The notes beneath the pieces were generated by a model. The model saw only the letters and a program-made list of their open reading frames with translations, searched no databases and was not told the DNA's origin. From assembly GCA_011390645.1 (NCBI GenBank), contig JAABRY010000018.1, positions 1 to 38,739 of the forward strand: a stretch of 38,739 bases of DNA, read 5' to 3'. The position numbers were made by a program, and so were the translations under genes. The DNA comes from Gemmatimonadota bacterium. Its GTDB lineage: Bacteria > Gemmatimonadota > Gemmatimonadetes > Gemmatimonadales > GWC2-71-9. Below, one piece after another: positions 2,869 to 37,421 of the stretch. Position 1 is the stretch's first letter. Each line of letters opens with the position of its first letter.

Positions 2869-3687
2869 ATGTCCACCGAGCTGACGACGCTGGTGCGAGA
2901 GAAGTATGGCGAGGCCGCCCTGCGCGCGGGCACCGGATCCAGGGCCAGTTGTTGTGGATCAGACGCGAACTGCGGTGCCGACCCGATCACGACTGGCCTC
3001 TACTCCGCTGAGCAGATGGCCGACGTGCCGGCGCTCGCGCTCGCGGCGTCGCTCGGCTGCGGCAACCCCACGGCGCTGGTCTCGCTCGCCCCCGGAGACG
3101 TCGTGCTCGATCTCGGATCTGGGGGGGGGATCGATGTGCTGCTCTCCGCGCGCCGCGTCGGGCCGACCGGGTATGCCTACGGCGTGGACATGACCGACGA
3201 GATGCTCTCCTTGGCGCGCCAGAACCAGGCCGCGGCGGGCATCACCAATGCGGAGTTTCTGAAGGGGACCATCGACGCGATCCCGCTGCCGGATGCCTCG
3301 GTGGATGTGGTCATCTCGAACTGTGTCATCAACCTCGCCGGCGACAAGCGGGCCGTGTTGCGGGAGGCCTTCCGGGTGCTGCGACCGGGTGGGCGATTCG
3401 CGATCACCGACGTCGTGACGCGCGGCGACCTGCCCACCGCCGTACGCGAGTCGCTGCCGCTCTGGACCGGCTGCGTGGCCGGTGCGCTTGATGAGATGGC
3501 CTTCACCGCCTTGCTCCGCGAGGTGGGCTTCACGTCGCCGAGTCTGGAGTCCGTGCGTGAGTACACGGCCGAGGATGCGAGGGCGATCCTCGCCGACGGC
3601 GGCCTCGATGCCGACACGATGGCGCCGATGGTGGAGGGACATGTGTTCAGTGCCTTCGTGCGCGCCACCAAGCCGGCGGTGGCATGA
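2869..3687 (+). CDS. arsM: Arsenite S-adenosylmethionine methyltransferase
   Basis: 272-residue class I methyltransferase. Motif I is [10 protein letters not shown] (81-90) and the acidic loop is GVDMTDEML (105-113). The three cysteines known to bind As(III) in ArsM are present: C64 (SLGCGNP), C152 (SNCVINL) and C202 (WTGCVAGAL). An extra CC (28-29) and C35 lie near the N-terminus. It converts As(III) to methylated, partly volatile species using SAM. I chose the ATG at 2869 because GGGAG lies 5 bases before it; an in-frame TTG at 2854 is less likely. The glycines of motif I are encoded by a G9 tract (3121-3129). The stop overlaps the next start by 4 bp (ATGA). Confidence 0.94.
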
Positions 3688-4595
3688 GCTCAGCCGTGTT
3701 GCGCGCGGCCACGGCGCAAGATCTGCCGGCGGTGACCACACTGCTCACCGCCAACGGGTTGCCAACCATCGGACTCGCCGGCTTCCTCGAAGGATTGGTC
3801 GTGGCTGTGCGAGATGGAGAGATCGTGGGGGCAGGAGGTCTCGAGTCGGCCGGAGCGGACGTGCTCCTGCGGTCCCTCGTGACGGCGCCGGCGGAACGTG
3901 GTCGCGGGACGGGACAGGCGCTTACGGCGCGTCTCGTGACCGACGCGCGCCGCCGCGGGGCTGGCACGATCTGGCTCCTCACCGAGACCGCCGCCGATTT
4001 CTTTCCGCGACTCGGTTTCCGGCGGGTGCCACGTGACCGTGCACCCGCGCCACTGCAGTCGCTGGCTGAATTCGCCCATGCATGTCCGGCGTCGGCGACG
4101 GCATTGGCTCGCCGGGCACAGCCGCTGCGGGTGCTGGTCCTCTGCACGGCGAACGCGGCGCGGAGTCAGATGGCGGAAGCGCTGCTGATGCACTGGGGGG
4201 GGGACCTCGTCGCGACGGCGAGCGCCGGGTCACGGCCAGGGCATGGCCCGCACCCTCTCGCCGTGGCCACGCTCGCCGAGCGGGGCATCGCGTGGGAGGG
4301 GAAGCGGTCGCAGGGCATCGACGCGGTGGCAGACCAGCCGTGGGACCTGGTGATCACCGTGTGTGACGCGGCGCGTGATGCATGCCCGGTCTTGCCCGGC
4401 GCGACGATGGTGCACTGGGGGCTGTCCGACCCGGCCGCCGTGCCGCCGGAGGCGGTCGCAGATGCGTTTCGCGCGACGGCGAACGCGCTGGAAGCGCGCA
4501 TTCACGCCCTGCTCGACCTGCCGCTTGCGGTACTGGATGCGCCCGCGTTGCACGCCGCAGCGCAGGCGATTCATGCAGCGCAGGCGTCGGCCTAG
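3684..4595 (+). CDS. Fusion of ArsN-like GNAT acetyltransferase and thioredoxin-type arsenate reductase ArsC
   Basis: 303 residues, two domains. Residues 1-135 are a GNAT domain with the acetyl-CoA loop ERGRGTGQAL (71-80) and a C-terminal FFPRLGFRRV strand, resembling ArsN2 proteins of arsenic operons. Residues 148-275 are a low-molecular-weight phosphatase-fold ArsC: P-loop C154-TANAA-R160-S, then C227 and C234 in VCDAARDACP (the redox-relay cysteines), then VHWGLSDP. It would reduce arsenate to arsenite with thioredoxin and may N-acetylate an organoarsenical or other substrate. It is coupled to arsM by a 4-bp overlap. The stop shares CTAG with the convergent DUF1499 gene. A G9 tract (4195-4203) encodes part of WGGD. 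The acetyltransferase substrate is inference. Confidence 0.85.
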   Translation: MSSAVLRAATAQDLPAVTTLLTANGLPTIGLAGFLEGLVVAVRDGEIVGAGGLESAGADVLLRSLVTAPAERGRGTGQALTARLVTDARRRGAGTIWLLTETAADFFPRLGFRRVPRDRAPAPLQSLAEFAHACPASATALARRAQPLRVLVLCTANAARSQMAEALLMHWGGDLVATASAGSRPGHGPHPLAVATLAERGIAWEGKRSQGIDAVADQPWDLVITVCDAARDACPVLPGATMVHWGLSDPAAVPPEAVADAFRATANALEARIHALLDLPLAVLDAPALHAAAQAIHAAQASA

Positions 4596-5874: not shown

Positions 5875-5954
5875 GATGCCTCCACAAGCCTGATGGGATG
5901 CCGGGTGTCGATCAGGAATGCGCACCCCGCGCGCCGATCCCGACATCGCATCCC

Positions 5955-7511: not shown

Positions 7512-10288
7512 AACGCCACCTCCACCCCGAAGCGGATCAGTCGCGGTGGCCCGAAGACGAAGAGCGGCTGCGTGAAGTCCGCGGCCGCCGCGCGAAAGAG
7601 CGGCAACAACTCCGCCGCGCCACTGAGGACACCGTCCTGGTTGAGGTCAGCCTCCCGGCGATAGCGTGGCGACTCGTACGGGATCGGGGCCGGGTTCGCC
7701 TGGAACGCCTGCGTCGCCATCGTGTTGATCGTCTCCTCCGAGGCGAACGGATTGCCGGTGTCGCGCCGCGTGGCGATCTCGTTGCGGCGATTGGTCACGT
7801 TGCGGACGTCGAGGTAGAGGCCACCGCGCATGCCACCGATGCGGATCGGCTTGCGGAGGAGGGCATCGAGGGTCCACTGCGCCGGGAGCCGGGACCCGTT
7901 CGGCTCGAAGAGCAGGTCGGTGCCGGTGCTGTCGACGCGTGAATACGGCAGCCCCGTCGCGTAGCGGAAGACGCCCGCCACCACGAGTCCGCCGACCAGG
8001 CGACCCCCCAGGAAGCGCGGGCCGGCATTCTCGCGCACCTCATGATCCACTGTGGCGATCACCGCGAGCCGTCGGTCGAAGTCCAAGGGGAACTGCGCCC
8101 GTGCTGGGGGGGGGAGCGTGTCACCGGTGTTGGGATCAATGCGAATCAGGCGCTGCAACGTGAAGGCATCCGTGACCGTGCCCTCGGCCCGCTGGAACAC
8201 GCCCGCGAGACGCGCACCCCAGCCCTTGGTGCGCTCCAACTCGAAGAGGACCTCGGCCCCGATCACGCTGCCGACGTCGGCGTTGACGAAACGGCTGGAG
8301 TCGGGATTCACTCCGATCGGTGCCGCGGCCACGAGCCCGGTGAGGTTCTTCGTGAAGATGTTCACGCGCAACGAGGTCAGCTCACGCAGCCGGATGCGGG
8401 CGCTGAGTTCGAACTGCGTGCCCTGTTCGAAGCCGAGGTTCGGGTTGCCCTGCCGGAAGCGTCCGGTGCGGACCGTATCGTCGAAGGCCGCATCCACGAG
8501 GAACTGCAGGTCGGGCGGTTGCGAGAACTTGCCGACGGTACCGACGATCGTCGCACCCTGGAGCACGGTGGAGACGGCGATGCGTGGATTGATCGTCGAG
8601 CGGGTGCCGACCGTGGCGTTCTGGAGGTCGGCGCCCGGATCGAACGCGTCGTACCGGACGCCCGCGGTGAAACCGAGGTCAGCCACGCGTGCCTGCGCTT
8701 CGAGATAGGCACCGGTGGTCAGCGGGGAGAACGACGCGGCCGTGGCGGGGGGGACGTCACCTCCGACCGGGCGATATGCCACGACGCGCTGGAACGTCTG
8801 CACGTCCTGGGACGCCACCACGCCACCGAAGTAGAGGTCGGTCTGCTGACCGAGCGTCAGGCTCATGTCAAGTTGGGTGCGCAATTCCCTGAAGCGATTC
8901 CAGGCGATCTCTCCCTGGTCTGCCCCCCCCAGAAAGAAGCCCGGCACGCCCCACGGGGTCCGATCCGAGAGCGTCGGGACGAGGAAGCCGGGCTGCGCAG
9001 TGCGTGCCGCGACCGTGTCCTGTGCCCGCGCGAGTTCCTCGCCCCGGATGGCCAGACGCTTGCCCGTGAATGCGCCCATGGTGAAGTCGGCGGGCTCCAC
9101 GGCGCCGCGCACGAACTCGCGGTCGAACCAGCCGATACGAATGTCGCCGACCAGCGGCCGTCGACTCGACGGGGACGGGAGCAGCTGCAGGTGCGAGGTG
9201 AGCAACAGCCCATCCGTGCGACGTCCCGGGGCGAAGTCGGGATCGTACTTGTACTGCTGGTCGTAGAGGTAGCGCTGCTCCGTGGTGGCGAGGCCGAAGA
9301 GACGGCCGATCAGGCGTTGGCTCAGCGGAATGGTCAGCTTGCCCCCAGCGGTCCAGGTCTCGCCGCTGTTGTGCGGGAGCGGCCCCGGGGTGTCGAACCG
9401 CGGGTCACGAGGGTCGGTGGCGGCTGGCGCATTGACCGGATCGAAATCGAGCCGGGCTGAGAGGTCGAGGATGCCCACCGCGGTGATCCCCCCCCCAAGT
9501 GGTCCGTCCGCCTGCACCACGAGGCGATCGAGTCCGAGGTCGGCGATTCCGCTCATTGGCCGGTCCGTCTCGTAGGCAATGCGACCGCGCCAGGCATCAC
9601 CGCCGTCCCGAGTGGTCACACTCACGAGGCCGGAAATCGCCTGGCCATATCGCGCCGAGAAGCCATTGGTGATGAGCTGTGCTTCCGTGAGCAAGTCGGG
9701 AGGAATGCGAAGCCCGGTCCCGCCCGTCGAGGCGTCCAGCGCGTTCTTCACGCCGAAACCATCCAGGATGAATGCCTGTTGTCCCGCCCGTCCGCCGCGA
9801 AACGATTCACCCACCACGCCGGCCTGCAACGCGATGGCGTCCTCGAGAGAGGCGACCGGCAACCGTCGCAGGTCCTCCGAGCTGATCCGTTGGGAGGTCT
9901 GGGTGGCGAGCGGGTCGAGGACGGGATCACGGATGCCGATGGCGATCAGGTCTTCGAGTTGCACCGCCAACGGGGCGAGGCGCACCTCGATGCTCACGAT
10001 CTCGCCGGCACGAATCCGGATGTCGTCGCGACGGGTGGGCCGGTAGCCCGGCCAGGTGACCTCGACCAACCGGTCTCCCGTCGGGAGGCCGCGGAAGCGG
10101 AAGGCACCCCCGGTGTCGGTGGTCGCGCGGAAGCGCCCGCCATCGATGCGGACCTCCACCTGCGCGAGCGGTTGCAGGGTGCTGGCGTCGATCACCGTGC
10201 CGACGAGCCCTCCGGTGCTCTGTGCCGCAAGCGAGCTGGTGCCGGCCACGAGGGCGACCGCACAGGCAATGGCAAAGCGGGAGGTCAT
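7508..10288 (-). CDS. TonB-dependent outer-membrane receptor with carboxypeptidase-regulatory-like N-domain
   Basis: 926 residues. Signal peptide about 1-22, ending SSLAAQ. A CarboxypepD_reg-like beta domain follows at about 25-105 (GGLVGTVIDASTLQPLAQVEV). The plug is about 130-235, with RRLPVASLEDAIALQAGVV and GQQAFILDGFGVKN. The rest is the beta-barrel, ending in the terminal aromatic motif FGVEVAF. It imports an unknown ligand with energy from TonB/ExbBD, which are not in the window. The gene overlaps its neighbours by 4 bp on both sides. It carries G9-class tracts at 8106 and 9488, a C8 run at 8923 and a G7 run at 8747. An M28 peptidase in the same operon suggests a peptide-like ligand, by inference. 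Confidence 0.9.
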   Translation of the reverse strand: MTSRFAIACAVALVAGTSSLAAQSTGGLVGTVIDASTLQPLAQVEVRIDGGRFRATTDTGGAFRFRGLPTGDRLVEVTWPGYRPTRRDDIRIRAGEIVSIEVRLAPLAVQLEDLIAIGIRDPVLDPLATQTSQRISSEDLRRLPVASLEDAIALQAGVVGESFRGGRAGQQAFILDGFGVKNALDASTGGTGLRIPPDLLTEAQLITNGFSARYGQAISGLVSVTTRDGGDAWRGRIAYETDRPMSGIADLGLDRLVVQADGPLGGGITAVGILDLSARLDFDPVNAPAATDPRDPRFDTPGPLPHNSGETWTAGGKLTIPLSQRLIGRLFGLATTEQRYLYDQQYKYDPDFAPGRRTDGLLLTSHLQLLPSPSSRRPLVGDIRIGWFDREFVRGAVEPADFTMGAFTGKRLAIRGEELARAQDTVAARTAQPGFLVPTLSDRTPWGVPGFFLGGADQGEIAWNRFRELRTQLDMSLTLGQQTDLYFGGVVASQDVQTFQRVVAYRPVGGDVPPATAASFSPLTTGAYLEAQARVADLGFTAGVRYDAFDPGADLQNATVGTRSTINPRIAVSTVLQGATIVGTVGKFSQPPDLQFLVDAAFDDTVRTGRFRQGNPNLGFEQGTQFELSARIRLRELTSLRVNIFTKNLTGLVAAAPIGVNPDSSRFVNADVGSVIGAEVLFELERTKGWGARLAGVFQRAEGTVTDAFTLQRLIRIDPNTGDTLPPPARAQFPLDFDRRLAVIATVDHEVRENAGPRFLGGRLVGGLVVAGVFRYATGLPYSRVDSTGTDLLFEPNGSRLPAQWTLDALLRKPIRIGGMRGGLYLDVRNVTNRRNEIATRRDTGNPFASEETINTMATQAFQANPAPIPYESPRYRREADLNQDGVLSGAAELLPLFRAAAADFTQPLFVFGPPRLIRFGVEVAF

Positions 10289-11364
10289 GGCAGCTCCAGG
10301 AGGAAGAGATTGCGACTGTTGCCTGCGCGGCCTTCGAACACCACGCGTTCGCCCGTCGGATCAAGCGCCACGGCACCGATTCGTCCTTCGACGCCTCGGC
10401 GCGACGCGAGCACCTGTTCACTGGTCCCGTCCACCCGACGGAGCTGGCTGACCGAGTCGCGCTGCGCGCCAGGGGCTGGTGGCTCCAGGTAAATGCCACT
10501 GACGACCATCCGGTCCGCGGCGACCGCGAGGCCGGTGAGGCGAAAATCCGGCCGAGCAGGATCCGCCGGGGGCTCATAGGCGACGGTGGTGGTGCCGTTC
10601 GCCAGCAGCTCTTCCACGCGATCCGGATACCGGATGTATCGGCGTCCGGTCGCACGGTCTACCGCCACGCCGCCCGCGGCTGGCTGCACCGCCACCGCAG
10701 TCACGACACTGGCAGTCGTGCCGCTCCCGGGCTGGATCGTGGCCACATGGAGGCCGACATACGTGGTGTCCCAACAGATCCCTGGGGGACAGCGGTTGAT
10801 GATCACGGCATCGGTGGCAAGCGCTGTCAACTCGTTCGGGCCGCTCCAGGTGAGGTCGAGGAGGTAGTCCCAGGCCGTACCACCAGCAGGTTGAAAGACG
10901 AAGAGGTCAAGCACTCGTTCGGCGTTCACTGCTTCGCCTTCCCGGCTGATGAAGAGGGCGGCATCATTGGGCACCACTCCGTTGACGCGTGAGGTGTACC
11001 GCGTGAAGGCGAGGCGGCCATCGGCGGCGAGGGCTCCGAGCTCGAGTCCGTCGGCCAGCGTGTCCTGACCCTGCGCGGTCCAACACAAGGTGCGAAGTCG
11101 AGTGCCCCCCCCGGCGGGGAGTGTCGCGAGGCATCGATCGCGATCCGGGGTCCCGCGCACAAAGGAGTAGGTGATTTGTGCGCCGTCCTCGCTGAAGGCG
11201 GGCCGGAGATTGGCGCCGGCCGCAAAGGTCAACCGCACCGGTGTCACCGGGCTGAATGGCTCGAACAGGGTGGTGTCCGCGGCCGTGAACGGCTCGGTGT
11301 GGCCACACGCGCCGAGGAGCGTTCCCAGCACGCCTGCGATGAGGTGGGGAAGGCGGGTCATCAA
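10285..11364 (-). CDS. Propeller-like lipoprotein, paralogue 1
   Basis: 359 residues. The lipobox is LGACGH. The body has repeated strand motifs of the TolB/WD40-like type, such as RPAFSEDGAQITYSF and GAVALDPTGERVVFEG. It is a diverged paralogue of the next upstream gene: both begin the mature part with CGH(T/S)EPFT, continue with RLT-AAG-NL-PA(F/W)SEDG, and share DRDRCL and LPAGGGTRL. The operon placement, between a TonB receptor and another propeller lipoprotein with 4-bp overlaps both sides, suggests a surface or periplasmic accessory role. I do not recognise a named family. At the shared GGG it has a run of eight G followed by C (11105-11112). Confidence 0.8.
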   Translation of the reverse strand: MMTRLPHLIAGVLGTLLGACGHTEPFTAADTTLFEPFSPVTPVRLTFAAGANLRPAFSEDGAQITYSFVRGTPDRDRCLATLPAGGGTRLRTLCWTAQGQDTLADGLELGALAADGRLAFTRYTSRVNGVVPNDAALFISREGEAVNAERVLDLFVFQPAGGTAWDYLLDLTWSGPNELTALATDAVIINRCPPGICWDTTYVGLHVATIQPGSGTTASVVTAVAVQPAAGGVAVDRATGRRYIRYPDRVEELLANGTTTVAYEPPADPARPDFRLTGLAVAADRMVVSGIYLEPPAPGAQRDSVSQLRRVDGTSEQVLASRRGVEGRIGAVALDPTGERVVFEGRAGNSRNLFLLELP

Positions 11365-12494
11365 GGTCCCGTGTCGAGAAGGTAGAGGTCGGCGAGGTTC
11401 GGGGCGGAATGGAGTTCGGCCACCACCTGCCGACCGTCCGGCGATGCCGTGATGCGCCCCCAGCGCCCCGTGTCGGGGATGCGGCGGGTGTCGATGGGGC
11501 GCGTCGTGCCGTCGGCCAGGATTTCGATGATCGAGGCGAACTCCCCCTGCGGTCGGATGCCGCTGCTGGGGACGCCGCGCTGCTCGCTCACGAACACCCT
11601 CCCCCCCCCAGCGGCGAGGCCGACGATGCCACCGACCACCTCACTGGCGGCCCGTGGCGCACCGTACACAGGCACGGCCGGGCCGCCGGCGAGCGGCATG
11701 CGATAGACGGTGTCGGCCAGTCGAGCGGCGTCGGTGTTGATCAACGGGCTGCGCGGGGGCGCGACCACGAAGTACAGGAACCCCGCGCCGCGATCCACCG
11801 CGAGCATCGTCGCCCAGTCCACCTCGGCGAGCGTGGCCCAGCGGACCGGTGTCTCGTCCACGAGCAGCTCGACCAGGAGGCTGGCACGAAACGTCGTGTC
11901 GAAGGGCAGGGGAGGCGGGCTGTCGAATTCCCACCATGTCCCCACGGCGGCCTCGGCGGCGAGGGCGACAACCCGGCCCGGTCCGGCCCACGCCGGGGTG
12001 AGCAAGTAGGTCCATGGCCGCGATGTGCCTGGCGGGGTGCGCAATAGCGGTGTGATCTGCCGGCGGCCCCCAACCGAGTCCAGGCGGGTCAGCAGCAGCT
12101 CCCCGCCCTGCGGTGACTGCACGAACGAACTGTTGGTGTGATGATTCAGGACGATGCGCCCGTCGGCGTCCATCCCGCCGTGCGTATAGGCATCGAGCAC
12201 CCCTTCATCCTCGAGCGGCGGCGCACAGATCTCGGCGAGGCGCGTCCCCCCCCCAGCGGGCAAGACGCCGAGGCACCGGTCACGGTCCGCCGTGCCGCGC
12301 AGGTAGGAGTAGACGATTGCCGAGCCGTCCTCGGACCAGGCGGGGTGGAGGTTGGATCCGGCCGCGTGTGTGAGGCGGATCGGCACGGTGGCGGAGAAGG
12401 GGCCGTCATTCCGCTGGTCAGCCGTGGTGAACGGCTCCGAGTGGCCACAGGCGGCGAGCAGCAGGAGGGCGCCCGCCCGCGAGGCCGCGCTCAC
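11361..12494 (-). CDS. Propeller-like lipoprotein, paralogue 2
   Basis: 377 residues with lipobox LLAACGH. The sequence parallels its neighbour: HPAWSEDGSAIVYSY, GTADRDRCL, LPAGGGTRL, and a C-terminal GRITASPDGRQVVAELH blade. The central region has an insertion relative to paralogue 1 with Trp/Pro-rich segments. Start ATG overlaps the M28 peptidase stop by 4 bp. Two G9 tracts (sense strand) encode Gly-Gly-Gly at 12246-12254 and 11601-11609. A tandem duplication followed by divergence is the simplest origin. Function unknown. Confidence 0.8.
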   Translation of the reverse strand: MSAASRAGALLLLAACGHSEPFTTADQRNDGPFSATVPIRLTHAAGSNLHPAWSEDGSAIVYSYLRGTADRDRCLGVLPAGGGTRLAEICAPPLEDEGVLDAYTHGGMDADGRIVLNHHTNSSFVQSPQGGELLLTRLDSVGGRRQITPLLRTPPGTSRPWTYLLTPAWAGPGRVVALAAEAAVGTWWEFDSPPPLPFDTTFRASLLVELLVDETPVRWATLAEVDWATMLAVDRGAGFLYFVVAPPRSPLINTDAARLADTVYRMPLAGGPAVPVYGAPRAASEVVGGIVGLAAGGGRVFVSEQRGVPSSGIRPQGEFASIIEILADGTTRPIDTRRIPDTGRWGRITASPDGRQVVAELHSAPNLADLYLLDTGP

Positions 12495-13855
12495 CGGCCG
12501 AACACCGGAAACTGGACCACCGACTCGTGCCCGTCAGGGCCCACGGCAGCCACGCCGAAGAGCCAGTGGTCAATCACCACGCCCTCCAGGGTGATCAGCG
12601 TTCGCCCGGCCGGGATGAATCGCGAGTGCTCCCATTGCGGCGCGGTCGTGTCACGCCACCAGATCCGGTAGCCGATGGCCCCATCGTCCGGGGCGGGTTG
12701 CCATGACACCGAGGTGGAGGGGCTCACCGCGCCCTGGATCCGCACGCGTGTGGGGGGGGGAGGCGCCCAGGCGATCGACGCCAGCGTTGCGGCATTGACG
12801 CCAGTGAGCTTCGCGGCGTAGGGAAAGTCCACGAAGTCGATCACGTCCCCGAAATGCCGGCCATCCTCGGTCCGCAGGTCCTGGTGCTGACGGTCGTAGT
12901 GCTCGTGCATCTCCATGATCCGCACACCGGGCATGCCGAGGTCATTGAAGGGGCGATGATGCCCCCCTCGCCCGAACCGATCCAGGCGATAGATCATCCG
13001 CGGGCGCATCTCGGGGAGCACACGTCGGGTGAGGGCCTCGATGTAGCGCGCGAGTTGGCGTGACGGGCCGTCCACCTCGCCGCCATAGACGCGGCGATTG
13101 CGCTGCTCGGCCTCGGTCGCGCCTGGTGGCACCGGTTCCGAGAAGATCCGGAACGAGCGATTGTCCACCTCGCCATTGATACCGGCGATGTTGCCGATCA
13201 TGTCGTTGTTGAGGACCGCCTCGACGGTCCAGCCGCTGTCCAGGATCTCTCGCGCGAGTGCCGCCCCACCGAAGAGCCCCTGTTCCTCGCCGCTCAATCC
13301 GGCGTAGACAATGGTCTTGCCGAACCGATACGCACTCAGCACGCGCGCTGCCTCGAGGGTGCCGGCCATCCCGGAGGCGTTGTCGTTGGCGCCCGGCGAA
13401 TCCGAGGTGGCGTCCATCACGTCGCTGACGCGCGAATCGATGTCGCCTGACATCAGTACCAGGCGGTCGGGGTGCGAGGTGCCGCGCTGAATCGCGATCA
13501 CGTTCACGATCTCGGTGTCCCGCGTGATGCGAGTACCCTCGCGGCCGGGGACGATGCTGCGCGTGTAGCGTACCTCGAGGCAGCCGCCGCACGCCGCGCT
13601 GATCCGCTCGAACTCCGCAAAGATCCACCGCCGCGCCGCGCCGATGCCACGAGTTCGGGAGAGGGTATCAGAAAAAGTGTGTCGCGTGCCGAAGTCCGCC
13701 AGGATCCGGATGTCGCGAGCGATGCGCTCTTCGGACGGGGCCCGCGCGATTGCATCCAGACGAGGGTCCGGGCCGGGCGGCGCCTGCTGGGCCGCGAGGG
13801 AGGTCGAAGCGGTCAACAGGAGGACGGCCGCGGCGACACGTCGGGAGAGGAGCAT
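12491..13855 (-). CDS. Secreted M28-family metallopeptidase with C-terminal fibronectin-like domain
   Basis: 454 residues; the signal peptide ends SLAAQ. The M28 catalytic core contains GANDNASG (D158, bridging metal ligand), GLSGEEQG (E190 catalytic, E191 ligand), NNDMIGN (D218) and GGHHRPF (H300). At the site of the first zinc-ligand histidine, usually HxD, it reads SGDIDS, so D138 replaces His. A CGGC pair (89-92) may form a disulfide. After residue 355 a beta-rich domain (ATRV/VSWQPAPDDGAIGYRIWWRD) resembles FN3. It leads the five-gene coupled unit, so the receptor may take up its products. No clear promoter is visible in the 123 bp upstream. Confidence 0.88.
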   Translation of the reverse strand: MLLSRRVAAAVLLLTASTSLAAQQAPPGPDPRLDAIARAPSEERIARDIRILADFGTRHTFSDTLSRTRGIGAARRWIFAEFERISAACGGCLEVRYTRSIVPGREGTRITRDTEIVNVIAIQRGTSHPDRLVLMSGDIDSRVSDVMDATSDSPGANDNASGMAGTLEAARVLSAYRFGKTIVYAGLSGEEQGLFGGAALAREILDSGWTVEAVLNNDMIGNIAGINGEVDNRSFRIFSEPVPPGATEAEQRNRRVYGGEVDGPSRQLARYIEALTRRVLPEMRPRMIYRLDRFGRGGHHRPFNDLGMPGVRIMEMHEHYDRQHQDLRTEDGRHFGDVIDFVDFPYAAKLTGVNAATLASIAWAPPPPTRVRIQGAVSPSTSVSWQPAPDDGAIGYRIWWRDTTAPQWEHSRFIPAGRTLITLEGVVIDHWLFGVAAVGPDGHESVVQFPVFGR

Positions 13856-15052: not shown

Positions 15053-15847
15053 TCAGCCGCACAACTCGCCGCGGAGCGTGGTGACCGCGCGTCCCGCCAG
15101 CCTGACCCGATTGCCGACGACCTCACACCGCACATGTCCCCCGCGTCGGGAGGCTTGTTCGCCCACCAGTACCGTCCGTCCGAGCACCTGGGCCCAGTAC
15201 GGGGCCAGCGCACAGTGCGCGCTTCCGGTCACCGGGTCTTCCGCCACCCCCAGTGCCGGGAAGAAGCAGCGCGAGACGAAGTCGACGTTGTCCCGGTCCG
15301 TGGGAGCGGTGGCGATGACCCCGCGCACGTCCCACTGCGCGATCGCTCCAAGATCCGGCGTGAGGGATCGGACGGCCGCGGCGTCCTGCAGGATGCACAG
15401 GAGATCGAAGGCACCGCGCAGCACTTCCCGCACCGGGGAGCCGAGGGCGGCAGCAACTGTGGGGGGGGGATCTTCCGCGACCGAGTGAATCGCCGGAAAG
15501 TCGAGCGTGATCCAACCGTCGCCATCTCGGCTGGCGGTCAGGAGGCCGCTGTGGGTGTGGAAGCGGGCGGGTGCCTCGGGTGCGAGCACTCCGGTCTCCC
15601 AGAGATAATGGGCCGCCGCCAGTGTCGCATGGCCGCAGAGTTCCACCTCGGCCATCGGCGTGAACCAGCGCAGGCCGAACCCCTCCGGTTGGCGCGTGAT
15701 GAACGCGGTCTCCGCCTGGTTCAGCTCCATCGCGACCGACTGACACCAGGTGTCCGGCGGCGGCGTCCCCTCCAGGAGCGTCACGCCCGCGGGATTGCCG
15801 GTGAAGGGGCCGTCGGCGAAGGCGTCAATCAAGTGCAGCCTGGTCAT
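15053..15847 (-). CDS. PhzF-family isomerase/epimerase-like protein
   Basis: 264 residues, slightly short of the usual 280-300. Family motifs are DAFADGPFTGNPAGV (8-22), the catalytic glutamate E46 in LNQAETAF, WFTPMAEVELCGHATLAAAH, and AEDPVTGSAHCAL near the C-terminus. Members isomerise small metabolites; most non-phenazine homologues have unknown substrates and no phenazine genes are nearby. The start ATG overlaps the S9 peptidase stop as ATGA, so it is co-translated with a secreted peptidase. A 9-base C run on the sense strand (15461-15469) encodes Pro-Pro-Pro. Confidence 0.9.
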   Translation of the reverse strand: MTRLHLIDAFADGPFTGNPAGVTLLEGTPPPDTWCQSVAMELNQAETAFITRQPEGFGLRWFTPMAEVELCGHATLAAAHYLWETGVLAPEAPARFHTHSGLLTASRDGDGWITLDFPAIHSVAEDPPPTVAAALGSPVREVLRGAFDLLCILQDAAAVRSLTPDLGAIAQWDVRGVIATAPTDRDNVDFVSRCFFPALGVAEDPVTGSAHCALAPYWAQVLGRTVLVGEQASRRGGHVRCEVVGNRVRLAGRAVTTLRGELCG

Positions 15848-18708
15848 GGCGACGCCGGGGCGACGGTCGTGTCGGGCGCGGCCGTGGCCGGCGGTGTGGG
15901 GGGGGGAGGGCGCCGGGCCCGCAAGTGCTGGTCGAGCTGCAGACGCGGCACACCGACCCGATACCACTCGGGCTCCGTCATGCCCCGCAGCTTGGCATCG
16001 AAGAACTCCTGCATCCGGGTGGCATAGTCCACCTGGTTGGCGCGCTTGGCGAGGCCATGGTTCTCACCCGGATAGGAGAGCATGACGACTTCCTTGCCGA
16101 GCTCACGCAGCGTGTTGAAGTAGGTGACGCCCTGGTTGAAATCGACGGCGCCGTCCTTGTCGTTGTGCATGATGATCAGGGGCGTGGTCACGCGCTGCGC
16201 GAAGCGGTTCGGCGAGTTGCGCAGGTACGCGTCGGCATGGTCGATGTAATTCCCCAGGAAGCGGCCTTGTGAGGAGACGAAGATCGGCTGGTTGGCGGAT
16301 CCGCTGTTCCAGTACACCGAGGAGTACATCGAGATCATGTCGGTGAGCGGTGCGCCGGCGATTGCCCCCTTGAAGCGATCCGTCTGCGTCACCAGAAACG
16401 CGGTCTGATAGCCGCCCCAGGAATGCCCCTGCAAGCCGACGCGTTCAGGGTCCACCACGCCAGTCGCCACCGCGGCATCGAGCGCCGGCAAGACCGTCCA
16501 GACGGCGCTCATCCCCGGATCATTGAGCGTGTAGGTGATGTCCGGCATCAGGATCGCGTAGCCGCGGCTCGTGTAGACGCTGGGATTGAGATAGCGCGTC
16601 TCGTTCGGGATGGCGTACTGGTGCAACGACTGGGACAGCTTCTCGTAGATGTACACCACCGTGGGCGCCCGCATCCCCGGCGTCCAACCGGCGGGCAGGA
16701 AGAGCGCGGCTTGCAAGGTGTCGCCTCGCGCACTCACGTAATCCACGAGCCGTGCGCCGGCGGACCATGCCACCTCGCGTTGTTGCGGGTTCGCGTCGGT
16801 GAGGCGCGTCGGGGCGGTCAGGGACCCGGTCGCCGTCCACCAATCGGGAAAGTCCACGAAGGTGCCGCGGGTCCAGGCATGCCGGGCGGCATCCCGGGCG
16901 CGCGTCACGCGGAGTTGCGCGTCATCGCTCAACAGGACCGTCACACCGGGCCGTCCGGGCTGAATGCGGCCGAAACCCTCGCGCTTGGTGCGTTCGCCAT
17001 AGAAGTGCAGTTCGACCGGCTTGCCGAGGTCGATCCCGCGTGCCCGCGGATCGGGTTGCACGATCTGCCGATACCGCAAGCCGTCGCGCTTCCCGTTGAC
17101 GGTGAGGTTGGTGGCCGTCCCCGCGGCGACGGGAACCCGCCAGAGATCCCAACCGTCCGTGAGCACGAGGGCGCGTGAATCATCCGTCCAGCCGAGGGGA
17201 AAGCGCGCCGGCTTGTCCACGTTGCGATCGTTCTCCTCGTCCCAGAAGATCGCGGAAATCCCGTCGGTCATGTTGCGGACCGGTCCGCCAGCGAAGGATT
17301 GCGTCAGCCAATGCCCATCCTCGAACCACGCGAAACGTTCGCCGTCCGGAGACATCGTGAGCGTGGTGCCCGCTTTGGTGAGCGCGAGGCGCCGAGTGCC
17401 GTCGCGCTGGTCAACGACGTAGACATCGCGATACCGGCGTCCGGTGAGGTTGCCCTCGAGTTCGTACGCGCGTTGATCGAAGCCGACCGCCCAGTGCCCG
17501 GTCGGGGCGAGCTGGACGTCGCGCACCTCCTCGTCGGCCAGCCGAACCAGCCGCTGCTGTGCCAAGTGCCACACTGCAAGCCAGCTGAAGGACTTGTCGG
17601 CGTTTTCCTGAACCTTCTGCATCGGCTGCAATCGCGGCTCGCGGCCGTGCCAGATTTCGACCACCGGCTTCTCGTCGTCTCCCCAGGCCGGGCCACGATC
17701 CTTGGGGGGATTGGTCTCGCGCAGGCCGAGGCTGAGGGTGGCGAGGTCGTCCGACCAGCGCAACACGCGATCGGGCGACACCTTCAGGCCCGGCGGCACC
17801 CCCGCCGCGGAGTCGCCGCGCATCTCGTGACGCACTGGTCCCTGCGGTCCGAAGCTGGTCCACGCGACGACGGCGAAGAGGGTGTCGGCGCGGGCCGTAT
17901 CGGGGATGCCGCGCATCACGGCGAGCGCCCGGCCGCTGTCGGCCCAGGTGAGCCGACGGTACACCGCCTTGGCAAAGTCTCCCGGTCGCACCGCATCGCT
18001 GGCGAGGTGGCGGAACTGCACTCCGTTGGTGAGGCGGTCCTTGGTATCCACCGTCCAGGCGAGCCACTCCCCGCGGTCGTCGAAGCCGAACTCTCCGACA
18101 TCGCCGATGGACAGGGTCGCATTGCGGGCGAGGTCGTGGAGCAGCAGCGTCGCCCCGGATGTCCCCCCCCCAGGTGATGCCCCCCCCGCCGCCCCGGCCC
18201 CCGTCGCTGGCGCGTCGGGATAGCCATGCAGCGCGACCCAACCGGGCCGATCACCGGCGAAGCTGATGCGGCGCACCTTCTCGAACCGCCGAACCTCACC
18301 GGTGCCGAGCGCGACGAGCGTGGCGGTGCCCTGCACCGGCTTCCGGTCCTTGCGCAGCTTCTTCGCCTCGGCGGCCGTGGGCCACGCGAGGAAGGCGGCC
18401 CACGCGCCGTCGCGGGTGATGGTGAGACCGTTCTGCTGCGTGACGTCGCCGACCGGGAATCGATGCTCAGTCTCACCCGTGGTGGTCCGCAGGATCACCT
18501 CGGCATCCCCCTCGTTCGGGGCGAGCACGTGGCCGAACCAGCGCCCATCCGCCGAGAGGCTGGCGTTGCGGATCGTCTTCCATCCGGCGAGGTCCTCACG
18601 CGTCAGCTGGCGCGGGCCCTCCGGCGCTGTGGCCACGGTGTCTTGCGCAGCGGCCGGCGCGGCCACTCCCAGCGTGAGGAGGGTGAGGAGCAGGTGGCGA
18701 TACGACAT
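15844..18708 (-). CDS. Secreted S9-family (prolyl oligopeptidase-type) serine peptidase
   Basis: 954 residues; signal peptide ending APAAAQ. Residues 30-640 form the beta-propeller (WD-like blades such as NASLSADGRWFGHVL), and the C-terminal alpha/beta-hydrolase domain has GHSWGGYQ with nucleophile S763, an aspartate in NDKDGAV and the histidine in GENHGL. It likely cleaves peptides in the periplasm or outside the cell. ATG 18708 is used rather than GTG 18711 because GAGG lies 5 bases before it. Around 18155-18200 a low-complexity Gly/Ala/Ser insertion in the propeller contains both a G9 and a G8 run. A C9 sense tract at 15898-15906 encodes a Pro-rich C-tail. Confidence 0.92.
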   Translation of the reverse strand: MSYRHLLLTLLTLGVAAPAAAQDTVATAPEGPRQLTREDLAGWKTIRNASLSADGRWFGHVLAPNEGDAEVILRTTTGETEHRFPVGDVTQQNGLTITRDGAWAAFLAWPTAAEAKKLRKDRKPVQGTATLVALGTGEVRRFEKVRRISFAGDRPGWVALHGYPDAPATGAGAAGGASPGGGTSGATLLLHDLARNATLSIGDVGEFGFDDRGEWLAWTVDTKDRLTNGVQFRHLASDAVRPGDFAKAVYRRLTWADSGRALAVMRGIPDTARADTLFAVVAWTSFGPQGPVRHEMRGDSAAGVPPGLKVSPDRVLRWSDDLATLSLGLRETNPPKDRGPAWGDDEKPVVEIWHGREPRLQPMQKVQENADKSFSWLAVWHLAQQRLVRLADEEVRDVQLAPTGHWAVGFDQRAYELEGNLTGRRYRDVYVVDQRDGTRRLALTKAGTTLTMSPDGERFAWFEDGHWLTQSFAGGPVRNMTDGISAIFWDEENDRNVDKPARFPLGWTDDSRALVLTDGWDLWRVPVAAGTATNLTVNGKRDGLRYRQIVQPDPRARGIDLGKPVELHFYGERTKREGFGRIQPGRPGVTVLLSDDAQLRVTRARDAARHAWTRGTFVDFPDWWTATGSLTAPTRLTDANPQQREVAWSAGARLVDYVSARGDTLQAALFLPAGWTPGMRAPTVVYIYEKLSQSLHQYAIPNETRYLNPSVYTSRGYAILMPDITYTLNDPGMSAVWTVLPALDAAVATGVVDPERVGLQGHSWGGYQTAFLVTQTDRFKGAIAGAPLTDMISMYSSVYWNSGSANQPIFVSSQGRFLGNYIDHADAYLRNSPNRFAQRVTTPLIIMHNDKDGAVDFNQGVTYFNTLRELGKEVVMLSYPGENHGLAKRANQVDYATRMQEFFDAKLRGMTEPEWYRVGVPRLQLDQHLRARRPPPPTPPATAAPDTTVAPASP

Positions 18709-21531: not shown

Positions 21532-22499
21532 GCAGCGTCCTGTGCAGGGTCCACGACCCGGTAGAGCAGATCGGCGAGGAGGGAGCCGACCTGCACGGTG
21601 AGAATCAGCAACGCGCCGGCGCCGACCACCATCGGGACGTCGCGTTGCGCAGTCGCCTCGGCGATCAGCGTCCCGATCCCGGGCCAGGCGAAGACTGCCT
21701 CGACGAACACGGCACCACCGACGAGCATCGGCAGCCAGAGGCCGAGCAGGGTGACGATCGGCGTGAGTGCGGGGCGCCAGATGTGATGCACCGCGAGCCG
21801 CGCCGGCGAGACACCGCGGGCACGCGCCGCGACGACCCATGGGGCCTCGCGGGTTTCGTCCACGGCCGCTCGCTGGTGACGGATCGGCACGGCGATCGTC
21901 GCCAGCACCATGGTCGTGAGCGGGAGGGCGAGGTGTCGCACGCGATCCAGGAGGACCGCGCCCAGCCCGGCGTCAGACGCGAGCAAGGGGTCGCTGTACC
22001 CGGCGGGCGGGAACCAGCCCCACGTGAGCGCGAAGAGCCAGACCAGGATGAGGCCGATCACGAAGGACGGCAGCGCGTACCCCACCAAGGTGAGTCCGCC
22101 GATGACGCGCGCCCGAAGGGTGCGCGGATGCAACGCGGTCCAGAGTCCGAGCGCGAGTCCGATCGTGAAGTGCACCAGCAGCGTGAGCCCGCCGAGCAGC
22201 AAGGTGGGCCCGAGGCGCTCGGCAAGCACCGTGGTCACCGGTCGACCGGCGGCGAGCGACGTGCCGAGGTCGCCCCGAAGTGCCCCCCCCACAAAGCGAG
22301 CGACGACGGTGCCGAGCGGCAGGTCGGTCCCCCAGCGCTCCCGCAGGGCGGTCAGGGTCGCCGGGTCGGTTGGGAAGTCACGAATCACCGCGGCCAGCGG
22401 GTCGCCCGGGAGCACCTGGACGAGGACCACCAGCAACAGCACCCCGCCGAGCGTGGAGAGGGCAGCGTCCAACGTGCGACGGACGAGCCAGTGCGTCAT
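21528..22499 (-). CDS. oppB: Oligopeptide ABC transporter permease (OppB/DppB type)
   Basis: 323 residues with six predicted membrane helices. The start MTHWLVRRTLDAALSTLGG and the motif LPGDPLAAV in the first periplasmic loop are typical of OppB. The coupling loop AARARGVSPARLAVHHIWRPALTPIV (split as ARGVSPARL, HIWRPALTP) is the EAA motif. The ATG at 22499 begins one base after the stop of the substrate-binding protein gene. A G8 run followed by C lies at 22283-22290. It forms the transmembrane pore with OppC. Confidence 0.94.
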   Translation of the reverse strand: MTHWLVRRTLDAALSTLGGVLLLVVLVQVLPGDPLAAVIRDFPTDPATLTALRERWGTDLPLGTVVARFVGGALRGDLGTSLAAGRPVTTVLAERLGPTLLLGGLTLLVHFTIGLALGLWTALHPRTLRARVIGGLTLVGYALPSFVIGLILVWLFALTWGWFPPAGYSDPLLASDAGLGAVLLDRVRHLALPLTTMVLATIAVPIRHQRAAVDETREAPWVVAARARGVSPARLAVHHIWRPALTPIVTLLGLWLPMLVGGAVFVEAVFAWPGIGTLIAEATAQRDVPMVVGAGALLILTVQVGSLLADLLYRVVDPAQDAA

Positions 22500-29484: not shown

Positions 29485-29987
29485 TGGCGATCGAGATCCA
29501 TGTCCTCAAGGGGGGGGGAACACTCCCCACGCTCGACTGGCAGTGGGACGCCGAGACGGGCATCCTGTCCGGGGCCTTCATGCCCGGGGTCATGCAGACC
29601 GGCTATACGGGGACCGTCGAGATGACGGACGAGGAAGGCTCGACGGTGCTGCTCGACATCAGCGGTGGGGTGCTCTGCGGGGTGGATATGGTCGTCTGGC
29701 CCGAGGTCACGCCATTGCCCGGGCTCGCGCCGCCGGTCGAGGCGCGCATCGCTCAGGTGGTCATCCCCGGGCGTTCGCCGCGCCGCGGCGCCGCCGCCAT
29801 GGAGTTCGACACCACGATCTCGATGGCCGCAGATCCCGGCGGGCGCGTGTACCACCTGCGCGTCGGCACGCGCCGGCCCGTCGAGCCGATTCGTGTCGCG
29901 GACAAGTTGCTTGTGGAGGTGGACGCCGCCAATCGCCTTGCAGGACTCTGGCTCGACGGCGTGCCTTCCCGCCCCGATCCGGCCTGA
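29484..29987 (+). CDS. Uncharacterised protein of the nurA-herA operon
   Basis: 167 residues, no signal peptide or membrane segment. The sequence is acidic and beta-rich: EIHVLKGGGTLPTLDWQW, then DISGGVLCGVDMVVWPEV and a C-terminal DKLLVEVDAANRLAGLWLDGVP, which faintly resembles the DUF2283 pattern. I do not recognise the family. Start ATG overlaps the aminotransferase stop by one base. A G9 tract (29510-29518) encodes KGGG at codons 9-12. Its position directly before nurA suggests a partner of the HerA-NurA system, by context only. Confidence 0.6.
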   Translation: MAIEIHVLKGGGTLPTLDWQWDAETGILSGAFMPGVMQTGYTGTVEMTDEEGSTVLLDISGGVLCGVDMVVWPEVTPLPGLAPPVEARIAQVVIPGRSPRRGAAAMEFDTTISMAADPGGRVYHLRVGTRRPVEPIRVADKLLVEVDAANRLAGLWLDGVPSRPDPA

Positions 29988-29995
29988 CCGGCCGG

Positions 29996-30931
29996 ATGGC
30001 CTCCCTGACGTTCCATCCACTGCGCCGCCGACTTGCCCTCGCCGGCGGACACACCGCCACCGCCGCCGCCGATGCAGCCGGCGGCCGGCGCGAGACCGCG
30101 AGCTATCGCCCCGCGAAACTCGTCGAAGGCCCACTCCGTGCGATCGCGGTGGGCGCACCGATCGCGTGGACCGAGCCGGTGGCATTTCTCGACGGCACGC
30201 AGCACGTCGAACTGCTCGGCTACCTCGGCACCGATCCGGTGCTGGGGGCCGACGTGCGTGCCGCGGTGCGCGTGCGCCGGGCGCGTCGACTCACGCTCTC
30301 GACAGAGGCGCATGAGCGACTGGTCGTGGCGCGACCGCACGCCCTTGCCCGCCTGGCCCCGTCGCTGCCCGGTGCGGTCCGGGCGATCCCGGTGGACGAC
30401 GCCGAGCCGCCGCATCCGATTGCCGACGCCGAGCGCGCGCACGCCCTCGTGGACCGGGCCCGCACCGCACTCGAAATCGAAGTGGCGCGCCGCTTCCGTG
30501 CGGTCGAGCCAACCACGTGGTGTCTGGTGGACGGCTCCCTCGCGACCTCGCCCGACTGGGCCCGGGACCCGCAGATGCTCGGCGTGGTGAAGAGCCATGC
30601 CACGCTGCCCTTCACGGACGACGAGCTGCACACCTACCTCACGCTGCCGGCGGGACATCGTACCAGCATCTTCGCGCCGGCCACGAGGCAGGTTGCCCCC
30701 GTGTACGCGTGGGCGCTGCGACTCCACGAATGGGAGGGGAAGGATCTCTTCCACGGCTTGTTGCGAATCGAAGCGCCCGCGACGGAGCACACCCTCGTGC
30801 ACGCGGATGCATGGTCGCGACACCTGCTGGCCGAGCGCGCCCCGCTCGCGGCGGACCGACGCGCGGATCGTCTCCTGTATGGCATCCACGATGTCGAGCG
30901 GTACCTGCGCGCCCGTGCGGGGGGGGGATGA
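29996..30931 (+). CDS. nurA: NurA-like nuclease
   Basis: 311 residues. The NurA family motifs appear in order: FLDGTQHVELLG with D66 (first metal-binding Asp), WCLVDGSL with D179, MLGVVKSHATLPF with K199, LLRIEAP, and a C-terminal RADRLLYGIHDVERYL helix with likely acidic/His catalytic residues. NurA is a 5'-3' exo/endonuclease that works inside the HerA hexamer to resect DNA ends. ATG 29996 starts 8 bases after the previous stop. The gene ends with a G9 tract encoding Gly-Gly-Gly, and its stop overlaps herA as ATGA. The sequence is diverged, so activity is inferred from motifs and context. Confidence 0.78.
   Translation: MASLTFHPLRRRLALAGGHTATAAADAAGGRRETASYRPAKLVEGPLRAIAVGAPIAWTEPVAFLDGTQHVELLGYLGTDPVLGADVRAAVRVRRARRLTLSTEAHERLVVARPHALARLAPSLPGAVRAIPVDDAEPPHPIADAERAHALVDRARTALEIEVARRFRAVEPTTWCLVDGSLATSPDWARDPQMLGVVKSHATLPFTDDELHTYLTLPAGHRTSIFAPATRQVAPVYAWALRLHEWEGKDLFHGLLRIEAPATEHTLVHADAWSRHLLAERAPLAADRRADRLLYGIHDVERYLRARAGGG
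30919..30931 (+). promoter_or_regulatory. G9-ATGA junction of nurA and herA
   Basis: The last codons of nurA read as nine G followed by ATGA. The ATG is the herA start and TGA the nurA stop. No AGGAGG-type site precedes herA, so the G tract, complementary to the C-rich anti-Shine-Dalgarno region, or termination-reinitiation must serve. The same 13 bases recur at the sbcD/sbcC junction. Confidence 0.6.
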
Positions 30932-32868: not shown

Positions 32869-34053
32869 ATGCGCATCGCTCACCTTGCCGACCCGCACCT
32901 CGGCTTTCGCCAGTACGCTCGCCTCAATGCCCGGGGGCACAATCAGCGTGAGGTGGATGTCGGCACCGCGTTTGGCCGCGCCATCGACGGGGTGCTCGCC
33001 GAGCGTCCCGACGCGGTGATTGTGGCCGGCGACCTCTTCCATGCCGTGCGCCCGACGAATTCCGCGATCCTGCAGGCATTCCGCGAGTTCGCCCGACTGC
33101 GTGCCGCGCTGCCCGACGCGCCGATCCTCCTGATTGCCGGCAACCACGACACGCCGCGCTCGAGCGATACGGTCTCGATCTTCGGGCTCTTTCATGACCT
33201 CGGCGTACATGTCGCGCATCAGGGCGCTCGCCGCTTTTCCTTCCCCGAGCTCGACCTCGCCGTCCTCGCGGTGCCGCATCAGGCGCTCTTCGAGCAACCG
33301 CGCCCCGCACTCGAGCCGGCCGGTCCAGAGCAACATCAGGTGCTGATTCTGCATGGCGAGACGCCGGGGCTGTTCGGCCATGATCGTGCCCTCGCCGAAC
33401 CTGGTGGCGCATTCCTGAGCGAGGCCGACCTCGGCGGGGCGTGGAGTTACGTCGCGCTGGGACACTATCACGTGCAGCACGAGGTGCGCCCGCGTGTCTG
33501 GTACGCCGGTGCGCTCGACTATGTCAGCCCCGACCCCTGGAGTGAGCTGCGCGAGGAGCATACGCGCGGGCTCCACGGGAAGGGCTGGCTGATGGTTGAC
33601 CTGCCCGAGGCCCGGGTCACACGCCACGCGATCGAGGCGCCCCGTCGCGTGCTCGACCTGCGTCCGCTCGATGCCGGGGAGCTCTCCGCTGCGGAACTGG
33701 ATCGCCTCCTCGCGGAAGCCATCGAGGCCGTGCCCGGCGGCATCGAGGACGCCGTCGTGCGACAGGTGGTTCGAGGTGTGCCGCGCGCAGTCGCGCGGGA
33801 ACTGGACCACACCACCATCCGGCAGTGGAAGGCCCGGGCCCTGCACCTGCACCTCGACCTGCGCCGTCCCGAGCGCGCAGCGCGAGAAGTCGGCATGGGA
33901 GCACCGGGCGAGCGGCAGACCCTGGCGGACACCGTGGCCGGCTTCCTGCGCGGGCGTGCCCTGCCGGGTGGCGTCGACCGAGAGCAGTTCGTGGCCGAGG
34001 GCATCGCGGTGCTGGCCGAAGTCGAGCGCGACGCACTTGAGGGGGGGGGATGA
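32869..34053 (+). CDS. sbcD: Mre11/SbcD-family DNA repair exonuclease
   Basis: 394 residues. Metallophosphoesterase motifs are in order: HLADPHLG (D8, H10), GDLFH, GNHD, LHGE and GHYH, all of the manganese-binding Mre11/SbcD nuclease. The C-terminal third is the Rad50-binding cap region. It cuts DNA ends and hairpins with SbcC. Start ATG 32869 follows the herA stop by three bases. The last codons are another G9 tract (34041-34049) giving C-terminal Gly-Gly-Gly before TGA, exactly as in nurA. Confidence 0.95.
   Translation: MRIAHLADPHLGFRQYARLNARGHNQREVDVGTAFGRAIDGVLAERPDAVIVAGDLFHAVRPTNSAILQAFREFARLRAALPDAPILLIAGNHDTPRSSDTVSIFGLFHDLGVHVAHQGARRFSFPELDLAVLAVPHQALFEQPRPALEPAGPEQHQVLILHGETPGLFGHDRALAEPGGAFLSEADLGGAWSYVALGHYHVQHEVRPRVWYAGALDYVSPDPWSELREEHTRGLHGKGWLMVDLPEARVTRHAIEAPRRVLDLRPLDAGELSAAELDRLLAEAIEAVPGGIEDAVVRQVVRGVPRAVARELDHTTIRQWKARALHLHLDLRRPERAAREVGMGAPGERQTLADTVAGFLRGRALPGGVDREQFVAEGIAVLAEVERDALEGGG
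34041..34053 (+). promoter_or_regulatory. G9-ATGA junction of sbcD and sbcC
   Basis: The 13-mer GGGGGGGGGATGA, identical to that at nurA/herA, ends sbcD. Here the sbcC ATG lies at 34055-34057, five bases beyond the G run, a normal Shine-Dalgarno spacing. The G tract is the only candidate ribosome binding site for sbcC. Confidence 0.6.
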
Positions 34054-36472: not shown

Positions 36473-37421
36473 TCGCACGGTGGTCGGACCGACGCGCCTC
36501 GAGGTGCGCGATGTGGGCGCCCTGAATCGCCTCTTCTCCGAGGCGTTCACCGAACGGTACCGCCGCGATGGGCTCAATGGTGTCCGGGTGCCGCACCTCA
36601 ATCCCGACGTCTGGCGCTACGCCCTCGAGGGCGCGGGCAGCGGCGCCATGGCGTGGCGCGATGCGCGCGGTGACCTCATCGCCTTCAACCTCTCCCACCT
36701 GTCAGGCACCGAGGGGTGGATGGGCCCGCTCGCCGTCCGGACCGATCGTCAGGGGGGGGGATTGGGTCGCGACATCGTCACTGCGGGCATCATCGCGCTG
36801 CGTGACGCCGGTGCGCGCACCATCGGACTCGAGACGATGCCGCGCACCCTCGACAACATCGGCTTCTACTCGCGACTTGGCTTCCGCCCGGGTCCGCTGA
36901 CGATCACGTTGCAGGGCGACGTGACCTCGGGTCTCGCACCGAGTGCACCGCGGTTGGGCGACGCCCCGGCGGAACGGCGTCAGGAAATGCTCGACGCGTG
37001 CCGTGCGCTGAGCAGCAGCGTCGTGCCAGGCGCCGACTTCACGCACGAGATGCAGCTCACCCTGGCCATCGGTCTTGGCGATGTGTCCCTGGTGCACGAC
37101 GCGTCGGGTGCGCTCCAGGCGTTCGCCCTGTGGCACTCCGCCCCACTGGCGGCGGGGCGCGTCGCGGAGGACTTGCGCGTGCTCAAGCTCGTCGCGCGCG
37201 ATCTCCCCTCGGCACGGCGTGCCATTGCTGCGGCAGAGGGTGAGGCTTCCCGGTGCGGTCTCGCAGGGTGCACCGTCCGCTGTCAGACCCGCCACCTCGA
37301 TCTCTACGGCCAGTTGATCACCGACGGGTGGCGCGTGCAGTGGACCGACCTTCGCCTCACCCTCGAGGGCTTCGCCGAGATGGAGCCAGCGGGAATCCTG
37401 TTGAGCAATTGGGAGATCTGA
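36459..37421 (+). CDS. Two-domain GNAT-fold acetyltransferase
   Basis: 320 residues. The first half is a GNAT domain with the acetyl-CoA pyrophosphate loop RQGGGLGRD and a FYSRLGFRPG C-strand. The second half has a similar secondary-structure order (GDVSLVHDASGALQAFALWHS, then RVQWTDLRLTLEG), so it looks like an internal duplication without an obvious acetyl-CoA loop. ATG 36459 is chosen because GGAGG precedes it at 9 bases; ATG 36438 has none. The G9 tract 36752-36760 encodes the cofactor-binding glycines themselves. It is the last gene of the resection operon and its substrate is unknown. A G-run/C-run stem (about 37438-37452) follows in the 125-bp gap. Confidence 0.82.
   Translation: MWRPDRTVVGPTRLEVRDVGALNRLFSEAFTERYRRDGLNGVRVPHLNPDVWRYALEGAGSGAMAWRDARGDLIAFNLSHLSGTEGWMGPLAVRTDRQGGGLGRDIVTAGIIALRDAGARTIGLETMPRTLDNIGFYSRLGFRPGPLTITLQGDVTSGLAPSAPRLGDAPAERRQEMLDACRALSSSVVPGADFTHEMQLTLAIGLGDVSLVHDASGALQAFALWHSAPLAAGRVAEDLRVLKLVARDLPSARRAIAAAEGEASRCGLAGCTVRCQTRHLDLYGQLITDGWRVQWTDLRLTLEGFAEMEPAGILLSNWEI

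Follow-up and report, generated by a model that had tools for sequence, protein, structure and literature searches.

The window, which is the whole stretch of DNA analysed (38,739 nucleotides), is contig C42 of G000, a 2.93-Mb genome assembly in 295 contigs (86% complete) of an uncultured bacterium of the Gemmatimonadota. Its genes include those for a methyltransferase-domain protein, a TonB-dependent-receptor-like protein, M28 and S9 peptidases, an oligopeptide ABC ATPase, a solute-binding protein, an acetyltransferase and an SbcC-like protein, and many of them carry runs of eight or nine G on one strand or the other (Table 1). The sole tandem repeat detected in the window consists of nine CCG units (37649-37675). 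An Rfam scan of the window at gathering scores gave no match, and neither did a near-identity search of positions 28273-30889 against phages.

G runs in the window

A recount bore out the run-length profile described in a sequence-only reading of the window: four runs of seven G, four of eight, eighteen of nine and none of ten or more, with A after all 18 G9 runs, C after all four G8 runs, and 12 of the G9 runs on the plus strand and 6 on the minus strand. Since every G8 run in the window reads G8CA, G9A and G8CA can be treated as a single non-palindromic word, H-G8-S-A, which covers all 22 of the G8 and G9 runs (18 G9A, 4 G8CA) and has T-G9-A as its best form. The 22 copies compare with a mean of 0.44 and a largest value of 2 in 100 dinucleotide shuffles. 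The window is motif-rich even for G000, as 11.7 copies would be expected at the sample average (P = 0.005). A context resembling the G9ATG one, in which the word runs into a called start codon, occurs at locus L004, position 16870.

Table 1. Copies of the H-G8-S-A word in the window, with the genes and residues concerned
Form	Position	Strand of G run	Context
TG9A	3120..3130	+	Methyltransferase-domain gene, Ser-Gly-Gly-Gly-Ile; same residues at congener locus L048
TG9A	4194..4204	+	Trp-Gly-Gly-Asp codons; Arg-Gly-Gly-Asp at congener locus L048
TG9A	8105..8115	+	TonB-dependent-receptor-like gene 7508-10288, template strand, Pro-Pro-Pro
TG8CA	8921..8931	-	TonB-dependent-receptor-like gene 7508-10288, Leu-Gly-Gly-Ala; same residues in some congeners
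TG9A	9487..9497	-	TonB-dependent-receptor-like gene 7508-10288, Leu-Gly-Gly-Gly-Ile; congeners differ
CG8CA	11103..11113	-	Pro-Ala-Gly-Gly-Gly-Thr
TG9A	11600..11610	-	Ala-Gly-Gly-Gly-Arg; frame assignment weakly supported
TG9A	12245..12255	-	Pro-Ala-Gly-Gly-Gly-Thr
TG9A	12751..12761	+	M28 peptidase gene 12491-13855, template strand, Ala-Pro-Pro-Pro-Pro
TG9A	15460..15470	+	
TG9A	15897..15907	+	Near end of S9 peptidase gene 15844-18711
TG9A	18162..18172	-	S9 peptidase gene 15844-18711
CG8CA	18178..18188	-	S9 peptidase gene 15844-18711; 16 bases from copy 18162..18172
CG9A	19889..19899	+	Oligopeptide ABC ATPase gene 19748-20728, template strand, Val-Pro-Pro-Pro
TG9A	21490..21500	-	Residues changed in congeners
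TG8CA	22281..22291	-	
TG9A	23371..23381	+	Solute-binding-protein gene 22501-24138, template strand
TG9A	24085..24095	-	Near start of solute-binding-protein gene 22501-24138
AG9A	29509..29519	+	
CG9A	30918..30928	+	A is first base of called start codon (G9ATG), gene 30928-32865
AG9A	34040..34050	+	End of called gene 32869-34053, just before SbcC-like gene 34055-36472
AG9A	36751..36761	+	Acetyltransferase gene, Arg-Gln-Gly-Gly-Gly-Leu-Gly; identical at congener locus L065

Abundance and placement in G000 and its relatives

The word TGGGGGGGGGA is a genome-wide short DNA word present in hundreds of copies in one uncultured bacterium, and the relatives examined are without it. This distribution suggests a species-specific signal read directly on DNA, for example a tag for the recognition of own DNA. 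The whole of G000 holds 742 copies of H-G8-S-A (404 and 338 on the two strands), or one per 4 kb. HG9A accounts for 307 and 265 on the two strands against 110 for a reversed-pattern control, and the control count is probably mostly explained by AG9A, which matches its own reversal (23 of 105 copies in the sample described below).

Placement was studied in a 435-kb sample of G000 made up of 37 stretches including the window, four masked pieces having been dropped. A was the next base in 105 of its 111 G9 runs, and C in 31 of its 42 G8 runs (CA in 27), giving 132 perfect copies (105 HG9A and 27 HG8CA). T preceded 71 of the 105 G9A, and the flanks held little information beyond one base. The absence of runs of ten or more, correct for the window, does not extend into a general rule, as the sample contains eight G10 and two G11 runs; such lengths are rare. 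The placing of all tracts within genes was likewise nearly right: 29 of the 132 sample motifs lie outside genes called with the author's simple codon-usage caller, in a sample of which 20% is uncalled, and several such sites in the window fall in frames that match congeners. All codon phases are used in the called genes of the sample, in line with the earlier reading of more than one phase.

Copies occur in both orientations, in and between genes, and their spacing is near random, with 22 gaps below 500 bases where simulation gives 20.5 and a coefficient of variation of 1.27 where it gives 1.10. Inverted-pair hairpins are lacking, with one of five close pairs in the sample inverted. No signal of the polarity associated with replication or segregation was detected, at low power because the GC skew is weak: orientation against GC skew gave 71 to 61 (P = 0.43) and against third-position skew 60 to 72 over the whole sample, and adjacent copies on six long contigs shared orientation in 38 of 64 cases (P = 0.17). 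Orientation does agree with the direction of most genes (88 copies to 44), as expected from the greater number of coding-strand opportunities (278 against 118). An apparent enrichment in congener-conserved genes (21 of 46 against 82 of 350, window genes included) vanished when window genes were left out and only untargeted congener stretches were used (5 of 15 against 82 of 334, P = 0.54; congener genomes partly covered).

Several other features of G000 were noted. Contig C2 (loci L009 and L112) carries a single copy in 40 kb, compared with an expectation of 12 (P = 7e-5, uncorrected for its selection from 31 contigs), and could represent acquired or misbinned DNA. Its genes are accessory-looking, and seven scanned proteins gave matches to a catalase, a DinB-type polymerase, a member of the endonuclease/phosphatase family, a 5'-nucleotidase, a PEP carboxylase, a TonB receptor and a member of a phytase-like family. 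G000 also has short repeats built on units of about 7 bases (GGTGAAA, GGGGTGA, GGTGAAC), as at L094 near 1634, L097 near 5887 and window positions 47-68, and over-represented CTACGACCTA and GCTAAAGC words; the stretches sampled from congeners G004 and G009 contain few or none of these.

Relatives were searched in overlapping sets of 121, 394 and 395 genomes and a family set of 102, each including G000, and no other genome in any of them came near its count. Nine congeners have 0-5 HG9A each (121-genome set), seven of these nine have 1-8 H-G8-S-A each (394-genome set), and 380 kb of G004 and G009 together contain neither HG9A nor HG8CA. Two genomes, G028 and G224, have 60 and 76 HG9A, but their reversed-pattern controls come close to these counts (57 and 55), which suggests that G runs are simply common in both. 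The genome G356, from a different family of the same order, has 67 HG9A against a control of 2, a weak but equally sharp version of the word: in 400 kb, G9 is followed by A four times and by C or T never. The base before the run there is C in 44 of 68 cases, T in 23 and A in 1, unlike that of G000. Each of the four congeners of G356 holds 2-6 H-G8-S-A, including 0-2 HG9A. This weak case suggests that such words can arise independently. As a small cross-phylum control, 80 loci totalling 1.31 Mb, with a G+C content above 62% in 28 loci, contained no copy of H-G8-S-A; they were the best 80 of at least 592 relatives of the oligopeptide ABC ATPase, with up to 58% identity and from many phyla. Viral contigs gave no match to the two patterns searched, T-G9-A pairs in direct orientation at 120-150 bases or inverted at 60-90 bases. 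No published description of such a word was recognised in literature listings, which is no proof of its absence from print.

A word on DNA, codon usage and slippage

The proposal of a DNA-level signal, already made from the window, is supported by the excess over codon shuffling, by similar use of the two gene strands and by a high count private to G000 among the genomes searched. When synonymous codons were shuffled 200 times within 329 predicted genes (350 kb), the test by which the sequence-only reading would have stood or fallen, the 84 HG9A in genes compared with a mean of 3.4 and a maximum of 10, and the 19 HG8CA with a mean of 2.4 and a maximum of 8. Codons redrawn from usage outside the motifs gave 2.2 HG9A (maximum 7) and 2.0 HG8CA (maximum 8), and runs of seven are depleted in genes (22 against 58 shuffled). 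Further, where A follows an in-frame H-GGN-GGN-GGN, 27 of 43 cases are written as G9, compared with 4 of 106 before other bases (P = 1e-14; C 0 of 22, G 4 of 76, T 0 of 8). Codon bias and Gly/Pro repeats are ruled out as explanations by the shuffling and this next-base test together.

In the G000 sample, synonymous change could produce the word at 278 positions with G on the coding strand, of which 76 (27%) carry it, and at 118 with C on that strand, of which 27 (23%) do (P = 0.38); together these make 103 of 396, about a quarter. The corresponding figures are 0 of 114 in G004, 0 of 107 in G009 and 4 of 215 in G356. Within called genes, G8CA is confined to sites at which the ninth base determines an alanine (19 of 19), and in the synonymous frame there are 27 G9A and no G8CA, which points to a protein constraint acting on a DNA word.

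Random slippage, which had been thought hard to reconcile with the fixed length and next base, does fit poorly. Well-aligned sites differ from congeners (about 65-73% identity) by ungapped substitutions, with frames open; at 3121, for example, a congener has TCG GGT GGC GGC ATT and G000 has TCT GGG GGG GGG ATC. The other sites have small gaps or lie in poorly aligned stretches where a substitution origin is not judgeable from the alignment, and the same origin is presumed for them. A congener-matching frame runs through all 22 tracts (tblastn), with weak support at 11601, 15898 and 34041. At least one congener has the same tract residues at 8 of the 22 sites (3121, 8923, 11105, 11601, 12246, 12752, 19890 and 36752), and residues have changed at others, such as 9488 and 21491. 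Shuffling, the next-base effect, strand use and substitutions thus argue for a DNA-level word rather than codon bias or slippage.

Near misses are few relative to perfect copies. Against a scaled congener background, the 435 kb contain 132 perfect copies, a modest excess with one mismatch (89 against 36) and 1247 against 656 with two. The excess over background for two and three mismatches is 0.9 and 0.4, compared with 0.22 and 0.07 given for the Haemophilus influenzae uptake sequence (PMC1939737); the higher values probably reflect a generally greater frequency of G runs of 4-7 in G000.

Possible roles and comparison with known systems

The reading that we rank first, by analogy and with a probability of about 0.4, is that of a self-recognition word spread by drive in the manner of a DNA uptake sequence. 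An uptake site and a Chi-type hotspot were both among the candidates of the sequence-only reading. H-G8-S-A, with T-G9-A as optimum, would be a genome-wide iterated recognition word on double-stranded DNA; incoming homologous DNA carrying it would be favoured by a putative sequence-specific receptor of the competence machinery, and molecular drive would steadily add copies, on the model of uptake sequences in Neisseria and Haemophilus. The uptake sequences of H. influenzae and N. gonorrhoeae fall steeply in number after zero mismatches, and a gradual origin by point mutation has been suggested for them (PMC1939737). G000 encodes a homologue of ComEC, the component of the competence machinery that was searched for (contig C41, an 829-aa open frame; gene at L111 2605-4893), as do 12 of 13 other genomes tested, among them eight of nine congeners; because the word-poor congeners also have ComEC, its presence discriminates nothing. 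The ComEC gene of G000 holds three copies of the word in 2.3 kb.

The main rival, which we consider unlikely, is a Chi-type site, the word being the regulatory sequence of the RecBC(D) helicase-nuclease of G000, protecting own DNA and directing recombination; in one variant, RecBC gained in a genus otherwise without it would have favoured a new word. The word is G-rich and non-palindromic, and its density of one per 4 kb is close to the one per 5 kb of Escherichia coli Chi (PMC8022716). Adjacent genes on contig C287 (L266 2050-8696) encode RecC (1059 aa) and RecB (1156 aa), and neither protein was detected by tblastn in congener sequence comprising 980 kb from G009, 200 kb from G004 and other sampled loci. 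Matches to the RecB-type nuclease domain (PF12705) occur in G000 and G356 and in none of six congeners searched, an absence that is not secure because the G000 match is itself marginal (22.8 bits, cut-off 22). With that marginal match, and with PF12705 matches in G270 and G331, two word-poor genomes of the genus of G356, the link to Chi is suggestive only. Against it also stand the 30% and 34% identity of RecC and RecB between G000 and G356 over the main aligned segments, the lack of recD similarity in the 0.8 kb after recB, and the lack of detected strand polarity by GC skew, third-position skew or neighbour orientation, in a genome of weak skew. The excess of Chi is milder than that of the G000 word. 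The Chi motifs described in PMC8022716 are octamers.

Less likely still is a ratchet of repair or methylation, in which modification or mismatch-repair bias makes and keeps the word, as proposed for GCGATCGC (HIP1) in cyanobacteria. Extreme iteration, use of all codon phases and patchiness among relatives would agree with it, as would the loss and replacement of HIP words in single strains (PMC4390886), but T-G9-A is not a palindrome. Equally hard to favour is a site bound throughout the genome by a chromosome-organising or segregation protein: the hundreds of copies, the near-random spacing and a proportion outside called genes similar to that of uncalled sequence are what such a site might show, but no polarity was detected (skew weak), and sites of this class are rarely so exact or species-specific.

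A sequencing or assembly artefact writing G9 over other sequence would be very unlikely, even though only two of several hundred genomes searched show the word. Long frames run through the tracts with residues shared by congeners, the G9 spelling depends on A as the next base, and the preceding base differs between the two genomes (mostly T in G000, C in G356). Moreover, no fixed word is depleted enough to account for the tracts: in a list of the strongest depletions for words of 4-10 bases, the highest expectation for one missing altogether is 27.5 (CGTCGATA), against 132 copies. Overwriting of one fixed word by read masking is therefore rejected (GGCGGCGGC occurs 87 times against 77 expected), and overwriting of a degenerate word would be a formal possibility. 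A phase-variable homopolymer tract fits poorly, as A follows 105 of 111 G9 runs, length is nearly fixed and frames are open.

To our knowledge, genome-wide exact words come from few lineages (uptake sequences, HIP1 and Chi), and how they begin is unsettled. As the present word is plentiful in one species, almost missing from nine congeners and weak in a second family, its gain, drive and protein cost can be read directly. Tentatively, and with some doubt, one species may since its split from its congeners have invented a new self-DNA word with a homopolymer core and established it at about one in four of the synonymously permitted positions, possibly driven by newly acquired RecBC or a new DNA-uptake receptor, with the same kind of word starting independently in the family of G356. 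The H-GGN-GGN-GGN-A test provides a simple score of progress toward saturation, and a word that marks own DNA would offer a practical handle for transforming this uncultured group.

By the size of its excess, its exactness, its substitution origin and its use of protein-permissive positions, the word groups with DNA uptake sequences and HIP words and not with Chi. Like the DUS of Neisseriaceae and the USS of Pasteurellaceae, it is an exact non-palindromic word of about 10 bases in many copies and both orientations, with a point-mutation origin and few near misses. It differs from them in its homopolymer core and in the lack of inverted pairs. Inverted DUS pairs at terminators are common, though not universal, and DUS dialects are common to related species, unlike the G000 word, which its nine congeners do not share. 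Copy number is also lower than that of DUS (943 to 5918 per genome; PMC3630211), and the two-mismatch excess is larger than that of the H. influenzae uptake sequence. With HIP1 and the alternate HIPs of cyanobacteria the word shares extreme iteration and a patchy pattern of gain or replacement across relatives, although those are palindromes tied to methyltransferases. Phase-variable poly-G tracts of contingency loci similarly lie within genes, but the G000 word has a nearly fixed length and next base, hundreds of loci and open frames. Compared with the Chi sites of RecBCD and AddAB, it is likewise G-rich, non-palindromic and spaced at about one per 4-5 kb in a genome encoding RecB and RecC, but is longer, shows no detected polarity and is in much larger excess.
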